From assembly GCF_018524365.1 (NCBI RefSeq), contig NZ_JAEKFT010000002.1:62001-126000 (forward strand): 64,000 nucleotides of DNA, given 5' to 3'. Positions 55,592 to 63,100 of the stretch are shown one piece after another; within the stretch, counting starts at the first letter, position 1; the number at the start of each line of letters is the position of its first letter. The translations under genes and the position numbers were made by a program. Below the pieces are notes generated by a model. The model had not been told where the DNA came from and did not search any database. It worked only from the letters and a program-made list of their open reading frames with translations. The DNA comes from Denitromonas iodatirespirans (GTDB taxonomy: Bacteria > Pseudomonadota > Gammaproteobacteria > Burkholderiales > Rhodocyclaceae).

Positions 55592-57193
55592 ATGGCGAAA
55601 GCGAATGGAAACACCCCAGGGGGCGATCTCGGCTTCGAAGCCGAATTGTTCAAAACCGCCGACAAACTGCGCGGCAACATGGAGCCCTCCGACTACAAGC
55701 ACGTCGCCCTCGGCCTGATCTTTCTCAAATACATCTCCGACGCCTTCGAAGCCCGCCACGCCGAACTGCTGGCCGAAGACCCCCGGGCGGCCGAAGACAA
55801 GGACGAATACCTCGCCGACAACATCTTCTGGGTGCCCAAGGACGCGCGCTGGTCGCACCTCAAGGCCGCCGCGAAGCGCCCCGAGATCGGCACCCTCATC
55901 GACGAGGCCATGCGCGCCATCGAGAAGGACAACGACTCCCTCAAGGGCGTGCTGCCCAAGGACTACGCCCGCCCGGCGCTCAACAAGGTCATGCTCGGCG
56001 AGCTGATCGACCTCATCTCCGGCATCGCCCTGGGCAAGGGCGGCGGCAAGTCAAAGGACGTGCTCGGCCGCGTCTATGAATACTTCCTCAGCCAGTTCGC
56101 CGGGGCCGAAGGCAAGCGCGGCGGCGAGTTCTACACCCCGCGCTCGGTGGTGCAGGTGCTGGTGCAGATGCTCGAACCCTACAGGGGCCGGGTCTACGAC
56201 CCCTGCTGCGGCTCGGGCGGCATGTTCGTGCAATCCGAAAAGTTCGTGCTCGAACACGGCGGGCGCATCGGCGACATCGCCATCTACGGCCAGGAGAGCA
56301 ACTACACCACCTGGCGCCTGGCCAAGATGAACCTCGCCGTGCGCGGTATCGACAGCGACATCCGCTGGAACAACGAAGGCAGCTTCCACAAGGACGAACT
56401 GCGCGACCTGCGCTTCGACCACATCCTCGCCAACCCGCCCTTCAACATCTCCGACTGGGGCGGCGACCGCCTGCGCGACGACCCGCGCTGGACCTTCGGC
56501 GTGCCGCCGGTGGGCAACGCCAACACCGCCTGGCTGCAGCACATCCACTGGCACTTGGCACCCTTCGGCACCGCCGGCGTGGTGCTCGCCAACGGCTCCA
56601 TGAGCTCCAACCAGAGCGGCGAAGGCGAGATCCGCAAGGCCATGGTCGAGGCCGACGCGGTGGACTGCATGGTCGCCCTGCCCGGCCAGCTCTTCTACTC
56701 CACCCAGATCCCCGCCTGCCTGTGGTTCCTCGCCCGTGATCGTAGGGGCGGGCCTGGTGCCCGCCCGTTGCGCGACCGCCGCGGCGAGGTCCTGTTCATC
56801 GACGCCCGCAAGCTGGGCACGCTGGTGGACCGCACGCGGCGCGAGCTGACCGACGCCGACATCCAGAAGATTGCCGACACCTACCACGCCTGGCGCGGCG
56901 AAACCGTAGGGGCAGGCCTTGTGCCTGCCCGGGAATCGGGCGACCACGAGGGTCGCCCCTACGCCGACGAGCCCGGTTTCTGCAAGTCCGCCACGCTGGA
57001 GGAAATTCGCCAGCACGGCCATGTGCTCACCCCCGGCCGCTACGTGGGCGCCGAAGCCGCCGAGGACGACGGCGAACCCTTCGCCGAGAAGATGGCCCGG
57101 CTCAGCGCGCAGTGGCGGGATCAGCAGCAGGAAGCGGCGCGGCTGGACGCGGCGATCGAGGCGAATCTGCGGGAGCTTGGGTATGGGGGGTGA
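55592..57193 (+). CDS. hsdM: Type I restriction-modification DNA methyltransferase subunit
   Basis: N6-adenine methyltransferase of a type I system, 533 residues. N-terminal helical HsdM_N domain ([35 protein letters not shown]), SAM motif [10 protein letters not shown] (from Asp203), catalytic NPPF (281-284), and the C-terminal [25 protein letters not shown]. Two REP-type insertions are translated within it: a singlet at residues about 384-392 (RRGGPGARP) and a REPIN at residues 439-457 (VGAGLVPA...), both in loops between conserved blocks. Overlaps hsdS by 11 bp. Confidence 0.94.
56742..56766 (+). repeat. REP singlet in hsdM
   Basis: GTAGGGGCGGGCCTGGTGCCC plus GCCC: hairpin GGGCGGGC/GCCCGCCC with loop CTGGT. 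Variant of the left arm of the REPINs below, translated in a different frame (RRGGPGARP) and without stop. Confidence 0.75.
56906..56962 (+). repeat. REPIN-like element B in hsdM
   Basis: Two inverted REP arms: left GTAGGGGCAGGCCTTGTGCC... (hairpin GGGCAGGC/GCCTGCCC) and right arm with hairpin GGGCGACC/GGTCGCCC ending GCCCCTAC, so the outer ends are GTAGGGGC and GCCCCTAC. 57 bp. Read in frame as VGAGLVPA then [10 protein letters not shown]. Confidence 0.85.
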
Positions 57194-60192: not shown

Positions 60193-63100
60193 TGGCCTTT
60201 CTCTCCGAAGCCCAACTCGAATCTGCGCTGCTGGCGCAACTGGCCGACCTGGGCTACGCCACGGCGTCGGACGAGTTGATCGGCCCGGATGGCGCGGCCC
60301 CCGAGCGGGCCGCGTATGACGAGGTGGTGCTGTCGGGCCGACTGCAGGCGGCGGTGGCCCGCCTGAACCCGAGCCTGCCGGCGGAAGCGCGCACCGATGC
60401 CATCCGCCGTTTGACCCAATCGGAACTGCCGAACCTACTGGAGGAGAACCGCCGCATCCACCGTCTGCTGGCCGAGGGCGCGGACGTGGAGTACTACGGC
60501 GAGGATGGCGTGCTGACCGCCGGCAAGCTGCAGTTGATCGATTTCGAACGGCCGGGTGAGAACGACTGGCTGGCGGTGCAGCAGTTCACCGTAGTGGCCG
60601 CCCAGGCCAAGCGCCGGCCGGATGTGGTGCTGTTCGTCAATGGCCTGCCGCTGGCGGTGATCGAGCTCAAGGCGCCGGGAGGCGAGAGTGCCACGCTGGC
60701 CGGTGCCTTCAACCAGTTGCAGACCTACAAGCAGCAGATCCCGGCGTTGTTCCGCAGCAATGCGCTGCTGGTGACCTCGGACGGCCTGTCGGCACGAGCG
60801 GGCTCGCTGTCGGCGGATCTGGAGCGCTTCATGCCCTGGCGCACCACCGACGGGGCGCGCATCGAGCCCAAGGGCGCGCCGGAGATGGCAACGCTGATCG
60901 AAGGCGTTTTCGAGCCGGGGCGCTTTCTGGATCTGCTGCGCCATTTCACCGTGTTTGGCGAAACCGGTGGCGGACTGGTCAAGATCATCGCCGGCTACCA
61001 CCAGTTTCATGCCGTGAAGAAAGCGGTGATCTCGACGCTGCGCGCCAGCCAGCATGCCGTGGCCGAAGAGCCGGCCGTGTATGGGCTGCCCAGCGTCAAG
61101 GACCAACCCGCGGGCGACCACAAGGCGGGGGTGATCTGGCACACCCAGGGCTCCGGCAAGAGTTTGCTGATGGCCTTCTATGCGGGCCTGCTGGTGTTCG
61201 AGCCACGCATGGCCAACCCCACGCTGGTGGTGCTGACCGACCGCAACGATCTGGACGATCAGCTGTTCGCGACCTTTGCCATGTGCCGCGACCTGCTGCG
61301 ACAGACGCCGGTGCAGGCGCAGGATCGCGAACACCTGCGGACCCTGCTCAACCGCGCCTCCGGCGGCGTGATCTTCACCACCTTGCAGAAATTCGCCCCC
61401 GTAGGGGCAGGCCTTGTGCCTGCCCATGATGGGGCAACCACAGGGGTTGCCCCTACGGCGCTGACCGACCGCGCCAACGTGGTGGTGATCGCGGATGAAG
61501 CGCACCGCAGCCAGTACGGCTTCAAGGCCAAAGTGGCGAGCAAGACCGGCGAGATCGCCTACGGCTTTGCCAAGTACCTGCGCGACGCGCTGCCCAATGC
61601 CTCGTTCATCGGCTTTACCGGCACGCCCATCGAGGCCACCGACGTGAACACCCCGGCGGTGTTCGGCCACTACATCGACATCTACGACATCAGCCGCGCC
61701 GTGGAAGACGGCGCCACGGTGCCCATCTACTACGAATCGCGGCTGGCGCGCATCGAGCTGGATGAAGACGAGAAGCCGCGCATCGATGCCGAGATCGAGG
61801 CGCTGCTGGAGGATGAGATTGAGGCCAGCGCCGAGCGCACCAAGCAGAAATGGAGCACGGTGGAGTCGCTGGTGGGCAGCGAAAAGCGCCTCGCACTAGT
61901 GGCGGCGGATCTGGTGGCGCATTTCGAGGACCGCGTGGCGGCGCTCCATGGCAAGGCGATGGTGGTGTGCATGAGCCGTCGCATCTGCGTGGCGCTCTAC
62001 GACGAAATCATCAAGCTGCGGCCCGACTGGCACAGCAAGGACGACACCGCCGGCAGCATCAAGATCGTGATGACCGGCGCGGCCTCCGACCCGCTCGCGT
62101 GGCAGCAGCACATCGGCAGCAAGGCGCGGCGTGATCTGCTGGCCAAGCGGGCTCGCGATCCGCAGGACCCGCTGCGTCTGGTGCTCGTGCGCGACATGTG
62201 GCTGACCGGCTTCGACGCGCCGAGCATGCACACCATGTACATCGACAAGCCGATGCGCGGCCACGGCCTGATGCAGGCCATCGCCCGGGTGAACCGCGTG
62301 TTCCGCGACAAGCCGGCCGGCCTGATCGTGGACTACATCGGCGTCGCCCAGAACCTCAAGTCCGCACTCGCTCAGTACGCCAAGCCCGACCAGGACAAGA
62401 CCGGCATCGACGAAGCCGAGGCGGTGGCGGTGCTGCTGGAAAAGGTCGAGATCGTGCGCGACATGTTCCACGGCTTCGACTACCGCACCGGCCTTGGCGG
62501 CACACCGGGCGACCGACTGGCCATGATGGCGGGCGCCATCGAATGGATTCTCGACAAGCAGCAACAATGGGCCGCGGCGGAAACGACGCCAGACGCCAAG
62601 AAGCAGGCGCAGCGGCGCTTTGCCGATGGCGTGCTGGCCTTGTCGAAAGCCTTTGCGCTGGCTGCGAGTTCGGATGAAGCGCGGGGCATCCGCGAGGAGG
62701 TCGGCTTCTTTCAGGCGATTCGCGCGGCACTGGTCAAGACGGCGGGGGGTGTCGGCGCTGCCCGCCAGGATCGGGAGCTTGCCATCGCTCAGATCGTCAG
62801 CCGGGCTGTGGTCTCGACCGAGATTGTCGACATCCTGGCCGCCGCCGGCATCCAGAGCCCGGACATCTCCATCCTGTCGGATGAGTTCCTGCTCGAAGTG
62901 CAGCAGATGGAGAAAAAGAACCTTGGGCTGGAAGCACTGCGCAAGCTACTGAACGACAGCATCCGCTCGCGCACCCGCACTAACGTGGTCGAGACTCGTG
63001 CCTTTACCGAACGGCTGGAGGATGCCATCGCGCGCTATCACGCCAATGCCATCACCACGGCCGAGGTGCTGCAGGAGTTGATCAAACTCGCCCAGGACAT

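Follow-up and report, generated by a model that had tools for sequence, protein, structure and literature searches.

In Pseudomonas, REPINs, which are built of repetitive extragenic palindromic (REP) sequences, are high-copy elements and lie mostly between genes. A REPIN is a unit of two inverted REPs and is linked to a REP-associated tyrosine transposase (RAYT) (Bertels and Rainey 2011, PMC3116915). The subject of this report is a set of REPIN-like elements inside the genes of a predicted type I restriction-modification (RM) operon of Denitromonas iodatirespirans. The operon lies on a stretch of 64,000 nt, referred to as the window (GCF_018524365.1, contig NZ_JAEKFT010000002.1, 62,001-126,000 of the forward strand; the genome is labelled G000). 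Its elements have the same two-REP unit and RAYT link as the REPINs in the available text of Bertels and Rainey; in contrast, they lie within genes and are low in copy.

REPs inserted in frame inside subclass 2.4 RAYTs, between the HUH and Tyr motifs, were described by Quentin (2018, PMC6006769). TnpA-REP subclass 2.4 shares with the window locus the in-gene REPs, the GTAG REPs of long or double-foot type, and a patchy horizontal spread. RM operons and REPs in neighboring HsdM or HsdR go unmentioned in the available text of that paper, where "restriction" has 0 occurrences. Single REPs and dimers in frame in open reading frames (ORFs), adding 20-30 residues thought to be in loops, were described by Di Nocera (2013, PMC3733652), including REPs in recB of two Xanthomonas, at nearly the same position. 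In the available text, many of those GTAG REPs are in replication and repair genes of REP-bearing genomes, whereas all pairs found here are in one RM operon. The Rickettsia palindromic elements (Ogata 2000, 2002, as cited in PMC10969869 and PMC3733652) are selfish, about 150 bp long, and in frame in protein genes. The window elements are likewise palindromic and in frame but, as far as those sources describe the Rickettsia elements, differ in having GTAG feet and a RAYT beside them.

No report of a link between RAYTs or REPs and type I RM was found in the main texts of the open literature (the target-ORF list of Di Nocera 2013 is a supplement). Most of the ingredients are known. What is new is that subclass 2.4-type RAYTs and type I RM operons have come together more than once and that REPs are lodged in the RM proteins, mostly in one HsdM loop and, in G000, nowhere else. 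We propose, with a probability of roughly 0.57, that the RAYT and its REPINs are passengers of a horizontally exchanged type I RM operon, settled in permissive loops.

REP elements in the reading frames of hsdM, RAYT and hsdR

The plus-strand operon hsdM-hsdS-RhuM-Fic-RAYT-hsdR extends from 55592 to 63428 of the window, downstream of gyrB, and holds full-length hsdM, hsdS and hsdR genes (ORFs, Pfam and NCBIfam), on which its designation as a type I RM system is based. The sequence GTAGGGGC is present in 10 copies in the window versus 1.06 expected (standard deviation 0.95), and none of 100 shuffles gave 10 or more. Nine of the ten copies fall within 56742-61456. The lone copy at 20250, outside the operon, is compatible with the chance expectation. 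Four GTAG-type pairs and one single arm are inside operon ORFs (Table 1). Thus, the original prediction of four paired elements in hsdM, RAYT and hsdR plus a single arm at 56742 is borne out in position, with the ORFs intact; as a correction, the RAYT gene accounts for two of the four pairs, one of which is at its C-terminal end.

Over 24 nt, the four pairs have the same left arm, GTA GGG GCA GGC CTT GTG CCT GCC, which encodes VGAGLVPA. That all the elements encode this peptide, as had been claimed, is true of the pairs and not of the single arm, which is read in another frame. The right arms differ among the pairs (GACC, ACCC, AACC and AACC stems), with the opposite stem strand changed to match, and the spacers differ as well. 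On folding with RNA parameters, each pair forms one long hairpin (z -3.9 to -5.8; single arm z -2.65). The window elements are therefore made as REPINs are, of two inverted GTAG hairpins forming a unit. They do not form a high-copy dispersed population, as there are four exact-head pairs at one locus in a 5.18-Mb genome; the elements are REPIN-like in structure and not as a population.

The original view of REPIN-like elements that keep the frame, occupy loops of variable length and have a RAYT nearby is supported. The VGAGLVPA segments are absent from HsdM and HsdR homologs. HsdR relatives with 82-89% identity have short variable loops at the REPIN site, and the segment is absent. In the DNA alignment, the closest hsdR homolog has 24 nt of loop versus 57 nt in the window. 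Since these 24 nt stand in for the 57, the hsdR REPIN is a replacement. The expectation of clean insertions is not upheld, and the element lengths are not all multiples of three. At HsdM site 2, 10 of the 18 loops read have 9-11 residues, and that of the window has 25. The remaining long loops, of 13 to 54 residues, likewise consist of hairpin-forming DNA, and five of the eight long ones, the window included, have a GTAG head. In five genomes (the window, G276, G398, G200 and G178), the element's final codon, TAC, occupies the position of a Tyr conserved in relatives. Alignment to solved structures of HsdM (3khk) and EcoR124 HsdR (4be7) places the sites in short loops between conserved motifs, and the window HsdM and HsdR enzymes may still work.

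The reading frame of the elements deserves separate comment. The left arm has two open forward frames, the third being closed by TAG, as was correctly noted when the frame was first said to appear selected. As just two frames are open, the occurrence of 4/4 pairs in the VGA frame is weak alone (chance about 1/16), and with the single arm included the count is 4/5 (p = 0.375). In the RAYT loops of relatives, the VGA frame holds for 24 of 25 plus-strand heads, although these are related genes and not independent events. In the RM genes, it is used by 9 of 11 heads (p = 0.065), or by 9 of 12 (p = 0.15) if a variant palindrome of G150 is included; this tally takes heads with an identical coding frame before and after the element and counts four tandem G276 heads once. 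Neither figure is significant, and frame selection in RM genes is plausible at most. Gene-versus-gap and frame counts over 165 places of the 24-mer were set aside, as open frames without gene calls are not decisive.

The RAYT has the hallmarks of its family. His81, His83, Tyr173 and Asn177, the HUH and Y---NP motif residues, are invariant in the 23 aligned RAYTs, the window's among them. The RAYT family profile finds E. coli TnpA-REP (4er8), and Tyr173 aligns with residue 115 of that structure, a tyrosine that we take to be catalytic. The window RAYT alone found no match in the PDB. GTAG REPs are at or near the gene, as two REPINs lie in it and the others within 3 kb. One of the two is an in-frame insertion between HUH and Tyr, as in subclass 2.4, a membership judged here by features and not by the models of Quentin 2018. 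A scan of RAYT loops in 60 loci gave 37 distinct ORFs with both motifs, of which 29 (the window and 28 others) have a REP head in the loop between HUH and WQR. In a class sample not chosen for REPs, the figure is 12 of 19. The RAYT-internal REPs resemble the REPs of their own locus, with a mean of 13.84/16 nt versus 7.83 on permutation (25 loci; none of 2000 permutations was as high).

RAYTs beside type I RM genes in other genomes

Type I RM genes of the same family stand beside a RAYT in 6 of 29 class loci (the window, G200, G276, G178, G150 and G367) and in 1 of 16 loci from genomes that share the 24-mer, namely G398 (Myxococcota). These 29 class loci have matches at roughly E 1e-15 or stronger and exclude a second place each in G194 and G358. 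Because the RAYT query is itself RM-linked, the proportion could be an overestimate, and its background is uncalibrated. Some fetched contigs end within a few kb, so that RM neighbors may be missed, and weak hsdM or Fic matches near five other RAYTs were left out of the count. On a RAYT tree built without the loop, in which many forks are open, the seven RM-linked RAYTs correspond to six changes, at least four of them forced.

Each of the seven genomes in which a RAYT adjoins type I RM genes has a GTAG palindrome in the same HsdM loop, with the frame broken in G367. The class survey read the site-2 loop in 23 of 30 loci (L316, L318, L325, L329, L335, L339 and L341 being unreadable) and found a GTAG-type repeat in G000, G200, G276, G150 and G065. 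Among genomes with a RAYT match of about E 1e-15 or stronger, 5 of 7 have the repeat, versus 0 of 16 others (p = 6e-4). G065 is counted by one exact head and fails the strict palindrome rule, under which the figure is 4 of 7 (p = 0.004); weak Y1 matches in G028 and G136 (E 1e-4 to 1e-5) are scored as no RAYT. Read apart from the survey, G178, G398 and G367 also have the repeat, so that the frame is kept at site 2 in seven of eight genomes. On the HsdM tree, these eight REP rows correspond to seven changes, six of them forced. In the window, G398, G150 and G367, a single contig carries both the RAYT and this hsdM; in G200, G276, G178 and G065, the two are on different contigs. Heads in the HsdM of G125 and G241 were rejected as REPs, being chance matches without a palindrome. 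Locus L308 has four tandem in-frame REP arms in one HsdM, suggesting expansion by slippage.

The hsdR gene follows suit: REP heads are present in 4 of 7 hsdR genes beside a RAYT versus 0 of 28 at other loci (p = 7e-4). Besides the window, the carriers are G200, G178 (with two REPINs) and G150. In the seven RAYT-RM genomes, the exact-head pairs that lie in RM or RAYT genes or the immediate flank of the RAYT are as follows: 4/4 in G000, 4/4 in G178, 1/1 in G200, 2/3 in G276 (overlapping matches in G276:C62 counted once) and 3/8 in G398, where one more is beside a weak RAYT fragment. The pair pattern was not found in G150 or G367. A candidate moved REPIN copy with spacer at G398:C261 was rejected, being the remnant of a decayed RM operon with the element at the same HsdM site. 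In the remnant RM locus L307 of G398, the only RM genes found among those searched are a REP-bearing hsdM piece and an hsdR tail, around a RAYT. In G367 (L280), just the C-terminal half of the RAYT remains, adjoining a gene that looks transposase-like by eye.

In other genomes, the same loops hold other palindromes, such as the CCCTCTCC...GGAGAGGG types of G028, G145, G100 and G236. Some operons that lack GTAG REPs have unrelated palindromic repeats in these HsdM and HsdR loops (L176, L178, L180, L338 and L151). The loops thus seem able to receive any hairpin repeat, with GTAG REPs occupying them where a RAYT is available. RM operons may be a favored home for REPINs, as the six other surveyed genomes are alike in this, mostly with other repeats. 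The seven RAYT-RM genomes, with the same HsdM loop and several repeat types, offer natural replicates in which to study the insertion of REPINs, the keeping of the frame, and the possible carriage of REP systems between phyla by RM operons.

Origin of the REPINs and the RAYT

The proposed passenger history runs as follows. A subclass 2.4-type RAYT and its cognate GTAG REPs would ride in a horizontally exchanged hsdM-hsdS-fic-RAYT-hsdR operon, with REPINs occupying, in frame, those loops of HsdM, HsdR and the RAYT that can take extra residues. As an HUH/Tyr single-strand nuclease, the RAYT would act on single-stranded DNA, recognizing hairpins with GTAG feet and copying or moving them. The insertions to survive would have been those in permissive loops that left the frame intact, and the elements would travel with the operon and not spread through the genome. 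On this proposal, the window RAYT would have moved the window REPINs, and insertion would have happened nearby. Speaking for it are the confinement of the exact-head pairs and of the arm pattern to the operon, the island setting of the operon, the recurrence of RAYTs beside RM genes and of REPs in the HsdM and HsdR found there, and the likeness of most RAYT-internal REPs to others of their locus. The RAYT with its REPs is an addition to the operon, because in the related operon of G028 fic directly precedes hsdR, with no RAYT between. The window operon shows that a low-copy RAYT-REPIN pair can live unspread, inside the reading frames of a mobile defense operon.

Several observations weigh against the passenger proposal. 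The window REPINs are alike in their left arms and not in their spacers or right arms, so they are no simple copies of one unit. The window RAYT scores below curated cut-offs (NF047646, 60.8 versus 80 bits; Y1_Tnp, 22.3 versus 23 bits), and the model match is split into two stretches flanking the loop; we retain the RAYT name since NF047646 matches every one of the 23 aligned sequences at E<=0.001 and the motifs are present. In 4 of 25 loci, the RAYT-internal REP matches its neighbors at 10/16 nt or fewer. Mobility of the REPINs is deduced, no move having been observed. The hsdR genes of G276 and G398 have no REP, and pairs lie outside RM and RAYT genes in G398 (5/8) and G276 (1/3). A single operon is assumed in G200, G276 and G178. 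The HsdM site is also filled by unrelated palindromes where no RAYT is seen. The operon of G367 is decayed, with the frame broken at the hsdM and hsdS REPs and the middle of hsdR lost; hsdR is shifted and shortened in G178 and lacks its first 255 residues, the N-terminal quarter, in G276. Decay of RAYT-bearing operons fits a harmless passenger less well.

The operon may instead have gained REPINs and RAYT in a REP-rich donor and have been imported ready-made, with nothing having moved in G000. We regard such an import as a possible though tentative account. The arm pattern has 8 matches in the draft genome (201 contigs), every one in the operon, and 0 in nine genus-mates, two of which are 86% complete, while the exact 24-mer arm occurs in at least 119 stretches of many phyla, some with many copies. 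The operon is an island, as gyrB adjoins the gene downstream of the operon in the genus-mate G002; of the 7 genus-mate regions fetched, 3 have other RM-like genes downstream of gyrB, G002 having none. The absence of the arm pattern from genus-mates, the wide spread of the 24-mer and the island setting are in keeping with import. A REP-rich source is, however, not among the other six RAYT-RM genomes, which also have few pairs (0 to 8); in every one of the seven genomes, the bare head is outnumbered by its reversed control, for example 131 versus 348 in G000, the control being crude. By our estimate, four REPINs within 4.6 kb is also a high density even for a REP-rich donor.

A bolder form of the passenger proposal is that subclass 2.4 RAYTs have a primary niche in type I RM operons. 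Together with REPs in fixed loops, the RAYT would form a co-travelling unit, re-formed convergently across phyla, and the HUH nuclease and hairpins may serve the operon in expression control or subunit exchange. We consider this doubtful. It is quite unlikely that the REPs are working parts altogether, i.e., hairpins that act within mRNA or single-stranded DNA to tune RM expression or exchange, or linkers altering the enzymes. The hairpins are stable, the HsdM loop has been reused repeatedly with the frame kept in all but G367 of eight genomes, and RM-adjacent RAYTs occur at several places on the RAYT tree, as working parts might; yet relatives manage without REPs, the unrelated palindromes in the same loop are more readily explained by tolerance than by function, the preference for one frame falls short of significance in RM genes, and several RAYT-bearing operons have decayed.

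Chance landing from an ordinary genome-wide REPIN population is very improbable: many genomes commonly contain REPINs, and cases of REPs in frame have been published (PMC3733652), but the genome-wide copy search found no such population, the four exact-head pairs of G000 (heads 12-73 nt apart) all being inside operon genes. The first 11 nt of the arm are also found at G000:C80:99930 and G000:C137:188475.

Scarcely any credence is left for an ancestral variable protein sequence without insertion. The original prediction had named the same residues in distant homologs as a ground for abandoning insertion, and such residues occur, VGAGLVPA in the HsdM of G276 and VGAPLVGA in that of G398, in the same loop; because the palindromic DNA differs between most genomes and there are seven changes on the HsdM tree, we read VGAxLVxA at this place as repeated insertion, and homologs at about 82-89% identity lack the segment.

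Features of the operon and wider occurrence of the arm

Table 1. Genes and REP elements of the window operon, in window positions
Feature	Position	Strand	Size	Basis
hsdM, type I RM methylase subunit, intact ORF	55592..57193	+	533 aa	Pfam N6_Mtase 351.9 bits, HsdM_N 94 bits
Single REP arm in hsdM, site 1, read RRGGPGARP (not the VGA frame)	56742..56765	+		RNA hairpin -17.5 kcal/mol
REPIN in hsdM, site 2	56906..56962	+	57 nt	Arm search; GTAG-type repeats in same loop of other genomes
hsdS, specificity subunit	57183..58496	+		Pfam Methylase_S 44 bits
RhuM-Fic domain cargo gene of operon	58532..59524	+		Pfam Virulence_RhuM and Fic; relative directly before hsdR in G028
RAYT; HUH His81/His83, Tyr173; TnpA-REP subclass 2.4-like by features	59521..60192	+	223 aa	NCBIfam NF047646 60.8 bits
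REPIN inside RAYT, loop between HUH and WQR motif	59800..59873	+	74 nt	Arm search; RAYT alignment
REPIN at C-terminal coding end of RAYT	60097..60173	+	77 nt	Arm search
hsdR, restriction subunit, intact ORF	60192..63428	+	1078 aa	NCBIfam TIGR00348 558.6 bits
REPIN in hsdR, loop between TTLQKF strand and DEAH motif	61401..61456	+	56 nt	Arm search; homolog and PDB alignments

Fic-containing relatives of the cargo gene also precede hsdR in G028, G100 and G178, and there is a partial match within the G398 operon. The stretch downstream of gyrB (window 55253-63568; compare L255, L257, L259 and L261) is perhaps an exchange hotspot for RM-like genes.

One REPIN used as a query against plasmids and phages gave no match. 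In viral contigs, the 24-mer is present in 8 stretches, and there is one distant RAYT match. The identical 24-nt arm was seen in Chloroflexota, Acidobacteria, Azoarcus, Omnitrophota, Planctomycetota and others (L018-L136), and some Caldilineaceae (L029, L058 and L128) carry it in tandem arrays.

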